The notes below the pieces were generated by a model that saw only the letters and a list, made by a program, of their open reading frames with translations, was not told the DNA's origin and made no database searches. Made by a program: the position numbers and the translations under genes. A stretch of 38,879 nucleotides of DNA from a virus: IMG/VR virus record IMGVR_UViG_3300025652_000188, positions 1 to 38,879 of that record, one strand, 5' to 3'. Positions 29,700 through 37,814 of the stretch are shown here, piece after piece (position 1 is the stretch's first letter; every line of letters begins with the position of its first letter).

Positions 29700-31394
29700 A
29701 TGACTGAACCAGAACCGAAGCGTGGACGTGGTCGCCCTAAGAAAGACCCCGAAGCACCGAAGCAAAGATATTTCCTGTCTGCCGCAGAGAAAGCGAGACG
29801 ACAATCACAAAAGAGATTACGTGACGCAAAGAAACGTGCAGATAAATTAACTAAAGTAGCAGAAAGTAAAAGAAGATATGCCAGAAAGCTTGAAGAGAAA
29901 GTTGGTAAAGTTGAGAAAGCTCTTAAGGGAGATACAAGTACCGTTATCGATACAGGTGACTTGGCAACACTTCCTCCACCTGTCCAAGAACTCGTGGGTA
30001 GCCGTGAAGTGGTGTTTCAGCCGAATGAAGGACCTCAAGAAGAGTTCCTTTCGTCTAGCGAAAGAGATGTACTCTATGGAGGTGCTGCTGGTGGGGGAAA
30101 ATCTTTCGCCTTGCTTGCAGATCCGCTTCGTTACTGCACTAATCCTAATCATAGGGGTCTTCTTCTCAGGCGTACTCTTGACGAACTTACTGAGTTAATT
30201 GACAAGTCACGACAACTCTACCCGAAAGCGTTCCCCGGAGCGAAGTTCAGGGAATCAAAGTCAACGTGGCACTTCCCATCGGGAGCTACCATTTGGTTTA
30301 CGTATCTAGACAAAGACAAAGATGTAACCCGATTTCAAGGACAAGCTTTCAACTGGATAGGCATAGACGAGATAACCCAGTACCCGACACCCTACGTGTG
30401 GGACTACCTGAGATCAAGATTGAGAAGCACCGACCCAGAGCTACAGCAAAATCTGTATATGAGGTGTACAGCCAACCCCGGAGGAATCGGCGGTTGGTGG
30501 ATCAAGAAGATGTACATTGACATAGGTGAACACAACAAACCGTTCCCTGCATCCGATGTCGAAACAGGTAAACCTTTCTTGTGGCCGCAAGGACACGAAA
30601 AGGAAGGACAACCTTTATTTTATCGTAGGTTTATTCCTGCACGTCTAACAGACAACCCGTTCCTTATGGCTGATGGACAATATGAAGCTATGCTTCGTTC
30701 ACTACCAGAGATAGAACGGAAGAGATTACTTGAAGGGGATTGGGATGTAGCCGATGGTGCAGCCTTCCCAGAATTTAGCAGAGCGAAACATGTTGTGGAA
30801 AGTTTTGACTTACCTACCAACTGGCCCCGTATCAGGGCGGCTGACTACGGGTATGCGAGTCCTTCTTGCGTTCTTTGGGGTGCTATTGATTGGGATAATA
30901 ATATCTGGATTTATAGAGAATTATACGTAAAACAGTTGACAGCGGAGCAATTAGCGGATAGAATACTAGAAGCGGAACAATTAGATCCGTTACCCCACTA
31001 CACAGTATTAGACTCATCATGTTGGAACAAGACAGGCTTTGGTCCTTCTATAGCTGAAACAATGATGAGATGTGGAGTTCGTTGGACTCCCTCAGATCGA
31101 AATAGAATACAAGGTAAAATGGAAATTCATCGTAGGCTTGCAGATGACCCAAGAACAAACGAACCGAGATTACGAGTGTTTTCTAATTGTAGCAACACTG
31201 TCAAGCAATTGGCAGCAATTCCTCTTTCCAAGACTAACAGCGAAGACGTGGACACAAAAGCAGAAGACCACGCATACGATGCGTTGAGGTATATGTTAAT
31301 GACAAGGATGACAGGTTATGCGGCGATTCATCAAACGCTTAATGGTATCAAGAATCAGGTCTATCAAGTCCAAAATGAAACATTTGGATACTAA
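29700..31394 (+). CDS. terL: terminase large subunit
   Basis: A 564-aa packaging motor. ATPase domain: Walker A GGAAGGGKS (residues 127-135), Walker B WIGIDE (Asp223, Glu224), and a coupling segment CTANPGG near 256-262. Nuclease domain: RAADYGYASPS with an Asp near residue 380, then VLDSSCW and, near the C-terminus, KAEDHAYDALRY, which would cut concatemers into genomes. The N-terminus is unusual: RGRGRPKK (residues 8-15) is an AT-hook-like DNA-binding motif, followed by about 60 basic helical residues before the ATPase. The rest follows the common terminase pattern. Confidence 0.93.
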   Translation: MTEPEPKRGRGRPKKDPEAPKQRYFLSAAEKARRQSQKRLRDAKKRADKLTKVAESKRRYARKLEEKVGKVEKALKGDTSTVIDTGDLATLPPPVQELVGSREVVFQPNEGPQEEFLSSSERDVLYGGAAGGGKSFALLADPLRYCTNPNHRGLLLRRTLDELTELIDKSRQLYPKAFPGAKFRESKSTWHFPSGATIWFTYLDKDKDVTRFQGQAFNWIGIDEITQYPTPYVWDYLRSRLRSTDPELQQNLYMRCTANPGGIGGWWIKKMYIDIGEHNKPFPASDVETGKPFLWPQGHEKEGQPLFYRRFIPARLTDNPFLMADGQYEAMLRSLPEIERKRLLEGDWDVADGAAFPEFSRAKHVVESFDLPTNWPRIRAADYGYASPSCVLWGAIDWDNNIWIYRELYVKQLTAEQLADRILEAEQLDPLPHYTVLDSSCWNKTGFGPSIAETMMRCGVRWTPSDRNRIQGKMEIHRRLADDPRTNEPRLRVFSNCSNTVKQLAAIPLSKTNSEDVDTKAEDHAYDALRYMLMTRMTGYAAIHQTLNGIKNQVYQVQNETFGY

Positions 31395-31399
31395 AACAA

Positions 31400-33190
31400 A
31401 TGGATGAACTACTACAAAAATTAAAAGATGGAAACTTAACAATAGCTGAAGCTTTTGAGTTAGGTCGTCCTGATGTGAAGTTATATCAAAACACTGGTAA
31501 ACCTACTGCATTCCTAGAGAAATTGCAAGATGCAGGATTTAACTTATCTGATAATTGGGATACTATCGGAGATAGGGAGAAGCATGATACCCTTAACAAG
31601 ATATCTAGTAGCTCAGACTATTTAACACTAGCTAAAGTAGAATCTAGTCTTACTAAGATGGCAGCAGGCGAAGATTTCGATTATCCTTACACTAATAGGT
31701 TTGAAGCAAAAAAGGGAACTATCCGAGTTGCAAAAGTAAAAGGTGATCCTACCAAGCTAAGATTTGAAAAAGCTACTCAGCCAAGAGGAGATGAAGCAGC
31801 TAAAAAGATTACTCTTCCATCTATAGAGGATTTGAACAAGGCGATACATGCTACAACCTTAAAGTTAAAAGGCAACAAAGAAGCGGTAGCATTCTTTCAG
31901 TTAAAGCATCTGTTAGGAATACGAAATAGAGATTTAGTTAATCTTACAGTCGGTGAAGCAATTGAAGATTCACCATATGGAACACTTGACCCCGGATCAA
32001 ACACTCTTTATGGCATAAGTAACAAAGGTCAGAGAACAAACTACCAGTTACCATCTTTAGCTCAAGACATACTTGCTGATCTTGGGACAGATGCTAAAGG
32101 AAGAATGGGAGACAGTAAATCTATAAAATTGTTTAAGCAAAGTGAAGCTAGTTTAAGAACACTTATAAATAACACTATGAATGAAACCATGTCCGAGATG
32201 GGCTTGGAAATTACAGACCAAAAGACAAATAAAAAAATACCATTTACAATATCTGACTTGAGAAAGAATGTATTTGATGCAATAAATGAGTCAGAGGGTG
32301 CAGGGGTAGCAAACGTAGTCTTGGGACATTCTACAAAAGGTGATGTAGGATTAACTCACTATAAGGTTGACAGACAATCACGAAGAAAAATGAGTGTGGT
32401 TCAAAGAGCTTCTGAAGAATTTGGTAACATGTATCTTCAGGATATCAATCAAGTAAGTCCAAAAAATTTATACAAAACTTATGGATTTAACGAAGACTTC
32501 TTTAAGGAAAGCTCAGTAATTCCTTTCTCTGCTCCTACTGATATACTATCACAAACAGCTAGAGATACAACTTTACAAGTTGAAGGAACAGCAGCAGACG
32601 TAAATAAAACTGCGGGTATACTCAGCAAGAAGGTCGAAGGTAAAGTAAGTAATCTTACAAAACAGGTAGCAAAACTACAAGCTTTAAATGAACAAATGAG
32701 TGAACTTACTGGTTCAGATGCTCCTACAAAAGAACCCAAAAAGAAAATTCCAAAAAAAGGATCACCTATTAGTTTATCTGATGTTTTTGATTCAGAGACA
32801 TGGGACAAACTAAAAGGGGGTTTAAAAGGACTTGCAATTGGTGCGTTAGGTGTAGAGACAGTTAGACAGCTTGTTACTAATCCTTCTCAAGCTGCTCAAG
32901 ACATCGGAACAGAACTTTTACTTGAAAGAGGATTAGGAATGGGTCCGGGAGCTGCAGTAGGATTTGCAATGCAATCAAGTCCAGCAGGTGCAGGCTCTGA
33001 GCTTGAAGCTACTGATCCGACAGCAGAATACAGAACTATATCTGACGATCAATACGCAAACATGACATCTATGGGCTTAGAGACATCTGAGCAAGACATG
33101 GCTACAACGAATCCAATGAATTACGCAATGGATCAACAAATGAGTGATCTTCTACGTAAGGATATCCCTGATGAACAGGGTATTATGTAA
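31400..33190 (+). CDS. 596-aa protein with tyrosine-recombinase-like domain
   Basis: Residues about 140-335 follow the catalytic order of a tyrosine recombinase/integrase: Arg175 in LLGIRNRDLVNL, Lys209 in the beta-hairpin SNKGQRTNY, Ser285 and Arg288 in ISDLRK (normally HxxR), His310 in VVLGHSTKG, and Tyr321 in LTHYKV. The first 140 residues are a possible arm or core-binding region. After 340 comes a long extension with a coiled coil (KVEGKVSNLTKQVAKLQALNEQ), a Lys/Pro linker and a Gly/Ala-rich part, more like a virion protein. It sits between large terminase and portal. It could be an integrase carried in the head operon or a recombinase fold reused as a structural or packaging protein. 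No attachment site was seen. Confidence 0.7.
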   Translation: MDELLQKLKDGNLTIAEAFELGRPDVKLYQNTGKPTAFLEKLQDAGFNLSDNWDTIGDREKHDTLNKISSSSDYLTLAKVESSLTKMAAGEDFDYPYTNRFEAKKGTIRVAKVKGDPTKLRFEKATQPRGDEAAKKITLPSIEDLNKAIHATTLKLKGNKEAVAFFQLKHLLGIRNRDLVNLTVGEAIEDSPYGTLDPGSNTLYGISNKGQRTNYQLPSLAQDILADLGTDAKGRMGDSKSIKLFKQSEASLRTLINNTMNETMSEMGLEITDQKTNKKIPFTISDLRKNVFDAINESEGAGVANVVLGHSTKGDVGLTHYKVDRQSRRKMSVVQRASEEFGNMYLQDINQVSPKNLYKTYGFNEDFFKESSVIPFSAPTDILSQTARDTTLQVEGTAADVNKTAGILSKKVEGKVSNLTKQVAKLQALNEQMSELTGSDAPTKEPKKKIPKKGSPISLSDVFDSETWDKLKGGLKGLAIGALGVETVRQLVTNPSQAAQDIGTELLLERGLGMGPGAAVGFAMQSSPAGAGSELEATDPTAEYRTISDDQYANMTSMGLETSEQDMATTNPMNYAMDQQMSDLLRKDIPDEQGIM

Positions 33191-33210: not shown

Positions 33211-33435
33211 ATGCCAAACAACAACTACAACTATGGTGCTGCATACATAATGAACAGCGACAAAACTTCAGTCGATGATCAAATGGGTGCAGATCAATTA
33301 ACTCGTGAAGGTGCAGACTTTGACACAAAGATGGGAAACTACGATTTACAATCTGACATGCCAAAGAAGCAGTCAAAGCCGACTGTTGAAAGTGGATTCT
33401 TTACTATGGCAGACGACAAAAACTACTTTGGCTAG
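33211..33435 (+). CDS. 74-aa hypothetical protein
   Basis: Small Asn/Asp-rich protein (MPNNNYNYGAAYIMN ... GFFTMADDKNYFG) of unknown function between the recombinase-like protein and the portal. It has a good ribosome-binding site (TAGGAGACAAC) and a consistent late-gene context. It may be a minor head component. Confidence 0.65.
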   Translation: MPNNNYNYGAAYIMNSDKTSVDDQMGADQLTREGADFDTKMGNYDLQSDMPKKQSKPTVESGFFTMADDKNYFG

Positions 33436-33444
33436 GACTTATTT

Positions 33445-35583
33445 ATGGCTGACAACTTTTTAAATTCAGACGAAGAATCTGATTCTCCTTTACCAATGTC
33501 CAATGCGGCAGAAATTATGCCGGGACTTGCAGGATATGTAAAGAGTAGATTTGAAGATTCTGAAAACGGAAGACGTTCACACGAACATAGATGGCTACAA
33601 GCTTATAAAAACTTTCGTGGCATCTACGATTCAACTACACAATACCGTGATTCTGAACGATCAAAAGTATTTGTCAGAATAACCAAAACCAAAGTTCTTG
33701 CAGCATATGGACAAATTGTTGACATATTATTTGCCAACAAGAAGTTTCCTATTGTTGTAGAAGATACACCCGTACCAGAAGGTATAGCAAAGTTTGCTCA
33801 TTTGGAAACTCCTGCTGATCAGGTAGCACCACCACCTCCGCCACAAGATATGTATGGCTACGAGGGGGATGGTAGAGAACTACCTCCGGGAGCAACTCAA
33901 GCAACACCTATGGATTTCTTAGGTGGTATGGCTGACAAATTTCCGAATGCACCACTTGTCGAAGGTCCTGCTAAAGTAGGAGAACCTCAGATAAGCCCAT
34001 CTGGTGAAGCTGCACGTAAAATGGAACAGATGATCCACGATCAACTGCTCGATACAAATGCAGTCAATGTATTCCGACATGCTATATTTGAAGCATCTCT
34101 ACTCGGTACAGGAATTGTTAAAGGTCCTTTCAACTTTAACAAGAAAGTACACAAGTGGCAAAGAGATGAAGAAGGCAACAGGGAGTACATGCCCTACGAA
34201 AAGGCAGTGCCTAAAATAGAGTCTGTATCCGTGTGGGATTTTCATCCCGATCCAGCAGCTACAAGTATAGATGACTGTGAATACGTTATACAAAGACATC
34301 GCATGAATAGGCAACAACTTCGTGCTTTATCACAGCGACCTCATTTCGATATGGAAGCCGTAGAAGAGTGTCTTGCAAAAGGTCCTAACTACGAAGATAA
34401 GTACTACGAAGATACTATTCGTGAAGATGAGACTGAGCCATACTATCAGGAAAATAGATTTGAAGTTCTAGAGTATTGGGGTGTAATTGATGCTAAGTTT
34501 GCTGATGAAGCAGGACTAGAGCTACCTCAAGGAATATCAGAGCTAGATCAAATACCTGTAAACGTATGGGTTTGTGGCACAATGATACTTAGATGTGTTC
34601 TTAATCCATTTACACCGTCAAGAATACCTTATCAAGTATTTCCATACGAAGTCAATCCCTATCAAATGTGGGGTGTTGGTGTAGCAGAAAATATGGAAGA
34701 TGCACAGATGCTTATGAATGGTCACGTAAGAATGGCTATTGATAACTTAGCATTGGCAGGTAATCTTGTATTTGACGTAGATGAAGCAAGTTTAGTTCCC
34801 GGACAAAACATGGATATATTTCCCGGAAAGATATTCCGCAGACAATCTGGGGTTACTGGAACTGCAATCAATGGTCTTAAGTTTCCAAACACTGCAGGCG
34901 AAAACATACAGATGTATCAAATATCTCGCCAGTTAGCAGATGAAGAAACAGGCATACCATCAATTATGCACGGACAGACAGGTGTAACAGGGACAGGACG
35001 TACTGCTTCAGGTTTATCTATGTTGATGGGTTCTGCAGGTTTGTCTATGAAGACAGTCATAAAGAATATCGACGATTATCTACTGAAACCAATGGGTGAA
35101 GCTTATTTTCAATGGAACATGCAGTTTAACGACGATGCAGATGACATTGAGGGGGATCTTGAGATCAAACCTCGTGGGGTAGCTGCAGTGATGCAAAAAG
35201 AGGTACGAAGTCAAAGATTAACTGCCTTGTTGCAAACTGTGATGAACCCAACATTAGCACCATTTGTAAAAATACCGAATTTAATGAGAGAGTTGGCTAT
35301 ATCACAAGACATCGATCCAGATAGTTTAGTCAACGACGTAAACGAAGCACAGATTTACGCAGAAATATTGAAAGGAATGCAACAGAATGCTCAACAAGGA
35401 ACAGGCGGTGAAGGTAGCCCCACTGGTCAACAATCCCCAGATATGGGCGGGGCTGGAGGAGTACCTCCTCAACCTCAAGGATCTAACGGTCAAGGGGCTG
35501 GCGATGGCACAATCGGAGTCGGAGCTACGCCAGCTGCAGGGGAAGCTGGTTTTACTGGAAACGCTCCTCAGTTTGAAGAGTAA
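33445..35583 (+). CDS. portal protein
   Basis: A 712-aa head-tail connector that forms the ring through which DNA enters and leaves. The call rests on position after the large terminase, length, and the portal-like segment near residues 495-550: ADEETGIPSIMHGQTG, GTGRTASGLSMLMG and an ensuing helix with IKNIDDYLLKPMGEAYFQW. An insertion rich in Pro and Gly lies around residues 125-160. The last 70 residues are low in complexity (Gly, Gln, Pro), and the DNA there also encodes another protein in a different frame (35387-35617). Starts at ATG after a 9-base gap. Confidence 0.88.
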   Translation: MADNFLNSDEESDSPLPMSNAAEIMPGLAGYVKSRFEDSENGRRSHEHRWLQAYKNFRGIYDSTTQYRDSERSKVFVRITKTKVLAAYGQIVDILFANKKFPIVVEDTPVPEGIAKFAHLETPADQVAPPPPPQDMYGYEGDGRELPPGATQATPMDFLGGMADKFPNAPLVEGPAKVGEPQISPSGEAARKMEQMIHDQLLDTNAVNVFRHAIFEASLLGTGIVKGPFNFNKKVHKWQRDEEGNREYMPYEKAVPKIESVSVWDFHPDPAATSIDDCEYVIQRHRMNRQQLRALSQRPHFDMEAVEECLAKGPNYEDKYYEDTIREDETEPYYQENRFEVLEYWGVIDAKFADEAGLELPQGISELDQIPVNVWVCGTMILRCVLNPFTPSRIPYQVFPYEVNPYQMWGVGVAENMEDAQMLMNGHVRMAIDNLALAGNLVFDVDEASLVPGQNMDIFPGKIFRRQSGVTGTAINGLKFPNTAGENIQMYQISRQLADEETGIPSIMHGQTGVTGTGRTASGLSMLMGSAGLSMKTVIKNIDDYLLKPMGEAYFQWNMQFNDDADDIEGDLEIKPRGVAAVMQKEVRSQRLTALLQTVMNPTLAPFVKIPNLMRELAISQDIDPDSLVNDVNEAQIYAEILKGMQQNAQQGTGGEGSPTGQQSPDMGGAGGVPPQPQGSNGQGAGDGTIGVGATPAAGEAGFTGNAPQFEE

Positions 35584-35617
35584 TGTAGAGAAAGTCAAAA
35601 GCAATAATGGCATTTAG
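35387..35617 (+). CDS. 76-aa protein overlapping the portal gene out of frame
   Basis: Reads in another frame across the last 197 bases of the portal gene. It has an AAGGA ribosome-binding site nine bases before the ATG, and its composition is natural and helical: NNPQIWAGLEEYLLNLKDL, then SELRQLQGKLVLLETLLSL. That pattern (Trp, then a helix, then RxxQGxxxxLxxLLxL) resembles small proteins found just after the portal in marine podoviruses, from memory. The portal's C-terminus over this stretch is low in complexity, as expected when two frames share DNA. Its stop lies 11 bases inside the next gene. Confidence 0.65.
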   Translation: MLNKEQAVKVAPLVNNPQIWAGLEEYLLNLKDLTVKGLAMAQSESELRQLQGKLVLLETLLSLKSNVEKVKSNNGI

Positions 35618-37814
35618 TACTGGAAACCAACAATTTGATTTTTTACTAAGTCGAGCTAGAAATAGAAGACGATCTAAGCAAGCTTTGGAAGAAAACAATA
35701 TTGATGTCGAAACATCTTTAGAAAAAAGAAAAGAAGAATCTGAGTCTAGTGATGTTACATCTATTGGTACTCAAGTAGCAGATATGAGTGGTTTGGGAGC
35801 TTCAGGTATATCAGCGACTGATGTTTCAGTTTCCGCTGGATCTCAATCCATAGCTGATGCACAAGAGATGATGGATATTGCAGGAGTTGGCAGGGGTCAA
35901 ACAGTAGGGCAGGTGGCATTTGAAACAGAGATGGACAGAGCCAAAGCTGATTTTGCACAGTCTAATCCAGTTGGTGCGGCGATTGCAGGAATTTCTACTG
36001 ATGCAGTAGTTCAAGGGGCAATACAAACAGCACCTTTAGGTTTGGCTATGGCTGGAAAAATGGAAGCAGCAAGAGCTGCGGCTAACGTTGCAAATGTAAT
36101 TGGTGGTCCTGCATTTGGAATGATATCAGGAGTCATAGGACCTTCAATGCAAGATCCCTACGGACAAAACGTTGCAATGGGAAGTGGATTGCTTGGACAA
36201 GTGTCTCAGTCCTTAATGTCAACGCATTATAGCGTTGCAGACAAAGTAGCACAAGGAGTTCCGGGATATGCACAGGGATATTATGGTTATGATTTAGTTA
36301 GCACGTACCCCGGAATATTTGGTCCTACATTTTCTACAACGGCTATGGGGTATCAAATGGGTATGCCATTGGCAAATGCACCTTACTCACTTCAAAAAAA
36401 TGTATTTAAAAACCCAGTTCCTTCCTATACTGGTGACCCCGATGCAATGACAGATTTTGGTAGATTTGGTCTTGACCCAAGTCAAGCAACTTATGGAAGT
36501 ATAAGTGATTTTGGAACTGCAATGAGTGCAGCTCAGAATACAGGTTACTACGGTACATATGGTCAAGCTGTAATAGATGCTAAAGCAGGCAATAAAAAAG
36601 CACAATCTTTTCTGACAGAGATTGATGATACTAAGGGTATTGAAACAACAGGCGATTTAGGCGGTGTAGGGGATTTAGGAAGTGGCTATGGTATAGGAAC
36701 ATCTACAGGAACAGGCTCACAGACTATAGGTGGACAAGACGTAGATCCATCGCAGGGCGGTACAACTAGTGGAGGTGCAGTAGGATCAACTGGAGGTCTA
36801 GGAGGAGCTACAGGTGTAGGTGGAGGATATGGTAGCCCTAATGATGGAGATGGGGGAGACTCAGGTCCGGGAGGTGCAGGAGACTCTAGTGAACATGGTG
36901 GAACGAGATATGGCGGAAGAATTGGAATGGCAGCAGGAGATGTTGCTCAAAATCCATCAACTGAAATGGGATTCATCGGAGGACCACCAGATCAGTTTAC
37001 TGAACAACAAACCATAGCTGACGACATACCCAAAGAAGTACCTGAAGGAACATTTGTAATCAACGCACCTGCTGTAGAGTTTGCAGGTAAAGAAGATATA
37101 AAACAAATGTTGATCGAAGCTTATGAGATAATTGCTCAAGCAGATACAAATGCAGGAACAGACAGAACTGCTCAAGCAGCTAAAGTACCTAGCAAAGAAC
37201 AAGTTGAAATAATGATATCACGTGGAGAAGTTGTTGTGCCACCTGAGATAGCTAAAGTTATTGGTTACGATAGATTAGAAAAAATAAATAATCGTGGCAA
37301 AAAAGAAGTAGCTCGCAGACAAGAAGAATCCGAACAACAAGAAAAACCACAAGCTAGACAAGCTGCAGAAGGTGGTTTCATAGACACAGACGACAAAATA
37401 GCTTCCGCTGATTATTCAGAAGGTGGAATTGATGCTCTCCGAGCTACCTTGTTACGTGCAACAGGTCACTTAGAAAATGTAGAACAGGGACTAGGAGAAG
37501 GATTTAAGTATGGTAAAAAAAGTAAAGAAGGAGACACTTTACGTCACATACTTACAAGTGGATATATAAGTGAAGATGGGTTTTTAAATAACTTTATGTC
37601 AGATCTCTTCGATAGCAGAGAGAAAAGTAAAAATATGTCAGAAGAAGACAAAATTGATTTGAACAACAATAAATTCGGAAGGCTTTTACGGCAAAAATAT
37701 CCAGACAGATTAGAGTTTACAAAACAAGCTAGAAATGTAGTGGATAAACTAATTAAAGGTGAGACAATTGAAATAGACGGAATTTCACCAATGATGAGTG
37801 TAAGAGCAGAGTAG
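35607..37814 (+). CDS. 735-aa Gly-rich candidate virion protein
   Basis: Residues 1-60 are basic then acidic, and residues about 60-330 are Ala/Gly/Ser/Met-rich with hydrophobic stretches (AGISTDAVVQGAIQTAPLGL). Residues about 350-440 are a Gly-rich linker. It includes TRYGGRIGMAAGD, related to the MYGG and MKYGGK motifs. Then EGTFVINAPAVEFAGKEDI and EVVVPPEIAKVIGYDRL form a compact unit near 480-570. The C-terminal 130 residues (DTLRHILTSGYIS ... DLNNNKFGRLL) have an RH ... D-x-N-N-x-x-G-R pattern reminiscent of small alpha-helical domains seen in secreted bacterial proteins. Role unknown; minor head or ejection protein by context. Confidence 0.7.
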   Translation: MAFSTGNQQFDFLLSRARNRRRSKQALEENNIDVETSLEKRKEESESSDVTSIGTQVADMSGLGASGISATDVSVSAGSQSIADAQEMMDIAGVGRGQTVGQVAFETEMDRAKADFAQSNPVGAAIAGISTDAVVQGAIQTAPLGLAMAGKMEAARAAANVANVIGGPAFGMISGVIGPSMQDPYGQNVAMGSGLLGQVSQSLMSTHYSVADKVAQGVPGYAQGYYGYDLVSTYPGIFGPTFSTTAMGYQMGMPLANAPYSLQKNVFKNPVPSYTGDPDAMTDFGRFGLDPSQATYGSISDFGTAMSAAQNTGYYGTYGQAVIDAKAGNKKAQSFLTEIDDTKGIETTGDLGGVGDLGSGYGIGTSTGTGSQTIGGQDVDPSQGGTTSGGAVGSTGGLGGATGVGGGYGSPNDGDGGDSGPGGAGDSSEHGGTRYGGRIGMAAGDVAQNPSTEMGFIGGPPDQFTEQQTIADDIPKEVPEGTFVINAPAVEFAGKEDIKQMLIEAYEIIAQADTNAGTDRTAQAAKVPSKEQVEIMISRGEVVVPPEIAKVIGYDRLEKINNRGKKEVARRQEESEQQEKPQARQAAEGGFIDTDDKIASADYSEGGIDALRATLLRATGHLENVEQGLGEGFKYGKKSKEGDTLRHILTSGYISEDGFLNNFMSDLFDSREKSKNMSEEDKIDLNNNKFGRLLRQKYPDRLEFTKQARNVVDKLIKGETIEIDGISPMMSVRAE

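Follow-up and report, generated by a model that had tools for sequence, protein, structure and literature searches.

Lambda Int, Brujita Int and the Xer proteins are tyrosine recombinases (TRs) in which a helical N-terminal region precedes a catalytic domain with an R-K-R-(H)-Y active site. Residues at box II and at position III of the active site vary among accepted TRs. The canonical integrase gene (int) of HMO-2011-type phages lies upstream of the replication genes and is patchy in the group (PMC9038755). Phage phiCbK encodes a bare TR core that was proposed to resolve genome multimers (PMC3556154). In baculoviruses and bracoviruses, the TR-family protein VLF-1 is part of the virion and is required for the formation of nucleocapsids and for DNA processing (PMC11654684, PMC3649998). 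No virion-borne phage TR was found in the literature (open-access papers).

We analyzed a stretch of 38,879 bases comprising the whole IMG/VR record IMGVR_UViG_3300025652_000188, which is classed as linear (hereafter, the window). An open reading frame on its plus strand (31400..33190) encodes a protein of 596 aa, here termed the head-operon TR. It is preceded by the terminase gene terL (29700..31394, plus strand), whose stop codon lies 5 nt ahead of the TR start, and followed by a small ORF of 74 aa (33211..33435, plus strand), for which relatives have an ORF of similar size, and by the portal protein gene (33445..35583, plus strand). Because of its direction, the 5-nt gap to terL and its neighbors, the TR gene is probably co-expressed late with terL and the portal gene. 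The best matches of the TerL and portal proteins are to the HMO-2011, CRP and HTVC phages (46–58% and 45–55% identity, respectively), and these homologous proteins place the phage, by sequence, with the HMO-2011-type marine podoviruses. The carriers of the TR gene are a clade of uncultured marine podovirus-like phages; a tblastn search of 50,697 phage records with the window TR and four allele representatives gave no match, and no cultured relative came to light.

The head-operon TR resembles lambda Int, Brujita Int and Xer in its catalytic fold, active-site residues and domain order. In contrast to them, it has a long C-terminal extension with a tail motif, carries Arg in place of His/Trp in half of the family, and is located in the head operon of every genome examined, where it is hypervariable and lacks adjacent att DNA. 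The int gene of the HMO-2011-type phage CRP-3 (448-1521, 357 aa) belongs to the same superfamily, and the phages are related by TerL and portal; however, int adjoins replication genes, whereas the head-operon TR adjoins TerL, and the head-operon TR family profile does not match CRP-3 Int. The phiCbK gp143 protein (a 208-aa bare core) and P1 Cre are phage TRs with a known or proposed action on multimers of their own genome, but both occupy an early or replication position and neither has the head-operon place or the tail extension. VLF-1 would be a parallel in the way it works: it belongs to insect viruses with an unrelated capsid type, and the homology seen is that of the superfamily.

Fold and active site of the head-operon recombinase

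The window TR protein alone had no significant match in Pfam or PHROG. A profile of 32 same-slot proteins searched against PDB sequences matched XerC-like/XerA proteins (best E 1.8e-9), XerD and the Tn1549 integrase. Among the single members, 13 of 32 matched the Pfam Phage_integrase family and 11 of 32 matched PHROG integrase families (best E 7e-11). An AF2 model of aa 1-366, based on an alignment of 95 sequences, reached a pLDDT of 89.8 and a pTM of 0.81, and its best matches in the PDB are all TRs, including Tn1549, XerA, SSV1, IntI and Cre. The model superimposes on Brujita Int with Z 14.2 and on the lambda Int core with VIA Z 12.4 (rmsd 3.0 over 147 residues); Foldseek against the PDB gave modest E-values (1.4e-3) with a probability of 1.00. 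Among the viral models of BFVD, 12 pass an E-value of 0.001, and the named ones are all integrases. Nudivirus integrases occupy ranks 6, 16 and 26 amid many phage integrases, which is not specific to VLF-1 kinship. The absence of a family from the fold-match lists was given no weight as evidence.

The modeled catalytic domain spans aa 135-345 (31802..32434, plus strand), with PDB matches at aa ~135-337. The N-terminal helical region (aa 1-120; 31400..31759, plus strand; AF2 pLDDT mostly >90) lies where TRs have their core-binding domain, and structural alignments to lambda Int, Tn1549 Int and Cre reach into it. The predicted fold of the catalytic domain is that of TRs, which makes the protein a member of the tyrosine recombinase superfamily as modeled; a preliminary description of the window from its sequence had proposed a TR core with intact catalytic residues, and conservation, PDB profile matches and the AF2 fold all bear this out, with no sign of an unrelated fold. 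The identity of 31400-33190 as a TR gene is based on family conservation, profile and fold, and relatives carry an exact ORF-for-ORF replacement.

All six residues named in that description are exactly where it had placed them. Their codons, all on the plus strand, are those of Arg I (R175, 31922..31924), the beta-hairpin Lys (K209, 32024..32026), the segment S285-D-L-R288 that includes Arg II (32252..32263), H310 at the His/Trp position III (32327..32329) and the nucleophile Tyr321 (32360..32362), which lies in a loop (315-325) of low model confidence. The genes found in the same slot, at loci fetched via TerL and, independently, via the portal, number 139, or 95 after redundancy was removed at 85% identity. 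The 95 proteins share a mean column identity of 14%, and their sole invariant columns are R175, R288 and Y321 (95/95 each). The next most conserved columns are F245 (92/95) and K209 (88/95 in alignment A5; this column is less clear in a second family alignment). Arg I, Arg II and the nucleophile Tyr follow one another in the order and at the distances proper to TRs, with 22 to 25 residues from Arg II to His and 9 to 21 from His to Tyr. At position 310, His (48 members) and Arg (47 members) are about equally common. Ser285 of the window protein had been noted as a replacement of the usual His, correctly, but the point is minor and no defect of this copy, since the box II column holds S, Y, K, A or T across the family. 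In alignment A5, Arg310 pairs with Tyr or Ala at position 285, and His310 with Ser, Thr or Lys. By their aligned residues, these pairings constitute two active-site classes in one genomic slot.

Close or partial relatives of the window TR were found at 26 loci in IMG/VR. Twenty further full-length or near-full-length relatives, 68–100% identical, retain R175, K209, S285, R288, H310 and Y321 unchanged, so that R288, H310 and Y321, whose loss in close homologs would have counted against the assignment, are all kept. Within the window's own allele, dN/dS is 0.07–0.11 in the TR part and 0.2–0.4 in the tail; the former values indicate strong purifying selection on the TR part. Since the active site is invariant, catalysis appears to be selected, and the TR is predicted to be catalytically intact with an R-K-R-(H/R)-Y site. 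A chance motif match is ruled out by the 95/95 invariance, and a degenerate recombinase was likewise rejected.

The same columns bear on the idea that a TR fold was put to structural or regulatory use without catalysis, as in the TR-fold repressors YopR and MrpR. Weak structural matches to YopR and the position in a structural operon fit such a role, but it would not keep exactly the catalytic residues (two Arg and Tyr in 95/95, Lys in 88/95) while the rest diverges. Active-site conservation largely refutes this explanation, which we regard as very improbable. In this respect, the earlier suggestion that a recombinase fold was recruited into the particle has to be modified: the invariant active site speaks for an enzyme.

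Occupancy of the slot and exchange of alleles

The TR gene was found, in one copy, in 101 of 101 distinct TerL-portal intervals; 99 were assigned by an automatic rule, and L068 and L080 were confirmed by score (E 5e-55 and 6e-48). The unusual location in the head operon between terminase and portal, remarked on in the preliminary description, is therefore general, as is the occurrence of the same domain with its Tyr321 (95/95) at this locus in related phages. No TR was found outside the slot in the 101 interval loci. The portal-anchored sample contained the TR in 72 of 74 cases, the other two being cut by the contig end; this set is free of TerL selection and gives the same occupancy, although some contigs are common to both sets, whereas loci of the TerL-anchored set had been selected for their TerL identity, so that TerL similarity is overestimated in it. 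Counting relied on an HMM trained on members of these sets; the PDB, Pfam and PHROG matches did not depend on this HMM. The Pfam integrase model found nothing in 14 of 15 records, and its single match was below the cut-off. These phages thus appear integrase-free by ordinary annotation, yet each TerL-portal interval examined has a predicted intact TR next to the packaging ATPase.

In cultured phages, the slot of HTVC115P and HTVC033P holds small ORFs only, and that of CRP-3 nothing sizeable. Genes at the corresponding position in Rhizobium phage N3_19 and Sinorhizobium phage phiM6 were considered and found to be unrelated; the one in phiM6 is annotated as an SGNH hydrolase.

The TR itself is hypervariable. 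In pairs of phages with TerL 98.5–100% identical, the median TR identity is 27%, and 65% of the pairs fall below 35%; for instance, the TerL proteins of the loci L018 and L064 are identical, and their TRs share 28% identity. Blastp similarity of any kind was detected between the TR parts in only 1,054 of 4,465 pairs, and the 95 TRs form 21 clusters at 40% identity. We located the DNA junctions in 282 pairs whose TRs are unrelated. Similarity of the flanking DNA breaks off and resumes within about 10 nt of the ends of the TR ORF, with quartiles of -5/3/7 nt at the start and -3/8/11 nt at the stop. The exchange is exact, ORF for ORF, beside TerL genes that are 94–99% identical, and the portal-side flank in the swap pairs has a median DNA identity of 74%. 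A swap inside the gene was observed in L024, where identity to the window is 96% up to codon ~20, is replaced by an unrelated TR, and is again 96% from codon ~491; the segment swapped in the window is 31461..32871 (plus strand). Tails and N-terminal extensions are common to unrelated TR cores. In L119, L123 and L113, N-terminal extensions of about 110 aa are found on different TR cores, making the protein a mosaic at both ends.

Seen in these alignments, the slot is a fixed position with a hypervariable, swappable cassette. This combination of constant occupancy and exchangeable content is the main feature of the locus, and it was overlooked in the preliminary description. Because the TR part is strongly conserved within an allele, the diversity is old and kept by exchange rather than by fast change. 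Whole-ORF swaps combined with an invariant active site amount to a natural library of TRs, probably of differing specificity, that would be useful for studies of the evolution of TR specificity and as a source of recombination tools.

The pattern of exchange could point to a selfish, homing-like cassette, in which the TR promotes its own transfer from one co-infecting phage to another at the TerL-portal slot. The exact ORF-for-ORF replacement with 94–99% identical TerL on one side is what such an element would leave, but the TerL identity is inflated, the loci having been ranked by TerL, and the portal flank is not homogenized. A homing element also needs empty targets, whereas an empty slot was never seen among these intervals, and ordinary homologous recombination between flanking sequences is enough to explain the swaps; we consider this reading improbable. 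Hardly better are the prospects of a delivered effector, a TR with targets in the DNA of the host or of competitors (for example dif-like sites or the genomes of rival phages), whose diversity would reflect an arms race. A hypervariable protein that keeps its active site while its tail and N-terminal parts can be exchanged is reminiscent of polymorphic effectors, but the strong conservation of the TR part within an allele gives no sign of rapid change.

The window terL is ~95–98% alike among relatives at the DNA level, above both flanking genes, a figure inflated by the TerL-based sampling; this likeness suggests recombination or homogenization. The protein encoded after the portal (35607-37814) is conserved at its N-terminus and exchangeable in its C-terminal parts, with a weak DUF6973 match in the window. 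It has 616–1154 aa in relatives, and the stretch at ~36323-36963 cannot be aligned.

The C-terminal extension and a possible link to the head

The C-terminal extension (32591..33187, plus strand) comprises a helix (398-436), a basic linker, a Gly/Ala-rich part and the tail end NYAMDQQMSDLLRKDIPDEQGIM. The extension of about 260 residues, described earlier as coiled coil and Gly/Ala-rich, is real, as is its Gly/Ala-rich part; a coiled coil is suggested by helix 398-436, which comes from a full-length AF2 model of low confidence (9 sequences, pLDDT 38). The extension is under weaker purifying selection than the TR part, and identical or similar tails occur on unrelated TR alleles. An example of a tryptic peptide of the family is DLVNLTVGEAIEDSPYGTLDPGSNTLYGISNK.

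A motif of the form [GSN]F[ILVAMTF] was found within the last 14 residues of 66 of the 90 TRs with a real C-terminus, compared with a mean of 3 and a maximum of 10 in shuffled sequences. A GF-hydrophobic motif within the last 45 residues is present in 86 of 121 portals and in 0 of 127 TerL proteins. The window portal ends in the tail AGFTGNAPQFEE with a [GSN]F-hydrophobic motif, as in most TR tails. The window TR itself does not have the GF-type motif and carries the other tail type, DQQMSDLL. In the 74-aa ORF (33211-33435), VDDQMGADQL and SGFFTMADD occur together and resemble the two TR tail types. A docking peptide shared by TR and portal is a reasonable inference from these motifs.

Searching the genomes tried with a C-terminal profile, we found motif-bearing tails solely on the TR proteins themselves. 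A tail-peptide pattern search hit two unrelated chance loci, L040 and L054. The first of these (L040:1-2788) contains a DNA polymerase gene with an apparent intein, followed by a GIY-YIG-like ORF.

Possible roles at packaging, entry or integration

The place beside the packaging gene throughout the clade, the unchanging active site and the wholesale exchange of the remainder suggest a recombinase that has been drawn into the phage particle or the packaging machinery. We tentatively favor, giving it nearly an even chance, an active recombinase that is tied to the head or to packaging, has an exchangeable specificity and acts on phage DNA during packaging or entry. The TR would be made late alongside TerL and portal and would dock on the head or portal via its C-terminal tail. 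It could then exchange strands of the phage DNA during packaging and in this way resolve or define genome units. Alternatively, it may be carried in the particle and act straight after entry, for example by closing the genome into a circle; Cre circularizes the P1 genome. The recognition sites would be located away from the TR gene. Alleles would represent alternative DNA specificities, which would keep the genomes of co-infecting relatives from recombining with one another; we conjecture that the alleles are incompatibility groups. An enzyme acting on its own genome would not need hypervariability, which counts against the favored explanation, as do the tail of the window TR with its missing GF-type motif and the fact that no recombination site was identified. 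The more specific proposal of an obligate head or packaging recombinase, loaded by its C-terminal peptide and existing as dozens of interchangeable specificity or incompatibility alleles, is possible but somewhat doubtful. If true, it would be the first such role of a TR outside baculo-like viruses. A packaging or virion enzyme would add a new step to the assembly or entry of tailed phages, in parallel to baculovirus VLF-1.

In the main rival explanation, the gene would instead encode a cryptic lysogeny integrase oddly placed in the head operon, expressed late or carried in with the DNA, with swaps that switch the host attachment site. Its closest folds include the integrases of phages Brujita and lambda, the Pfam and PHROG matches of single members are to integrase families, and turnover of target sites would account for the hypervariability. 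Some HMO-2011-type relatives are temperate, but the known int of the group lies upstream of replication genes (PMC9038755), and the family profile fails to match it. It is also unusual for an optional lysogeny gene to occur in every interval. No allele-specific att DNA adjoins the TR gene: in the 282 pairs, the adjacent flanks can be aligned to within ~10 nt of the ORF ends and hold no allele-specific DNA fit for an attP; an attP farther from the gene is possible. Direct and inverted repeats around the gene include no convincing lox- or dif-like site. A search for an attP matching a tRNA gene had been proposed in the preliminary description; no tRNA gene or other RNA family (Rfam) match was found in the window.

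Other integrase families had no match in the near-complete records, and no integrase, repressor or excisionase is among the families listed for the 56-kb genome G001 (Pfam; PHROG best 25 of 105), where small regulators may escape recognition. When 84,980 species genomes were scanned once with a TerL pattern, no close prophage appeared, only one relative with 35% identity in Jiangella; the hosts may be missing from this collection. From the universal presence of the TR and the lack of adjacent att DNA, other integrases, a repressor and a close prophage in these searches, the sequence evidence on the three candidate roles (virion or packaging enzyme, multimer resolvase, integrase) leans away from a classical lysogeny integrase, which we regard as unlikely. 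If the TR is an integrase after all, an abundant and supposedly lytic marine group may hide a temperate life.

The single bacterial match of the TerL scan (L132, Jiangella muralis NZ_LFXL01000053) is possibly a distant prophage. The first and last ~2 kb of G001 and ~0.86 kb of G004 share sequence, and IMG/VR lists no end repeats for them; the shared ends suggest that these genomes are circular or terminally redundant.
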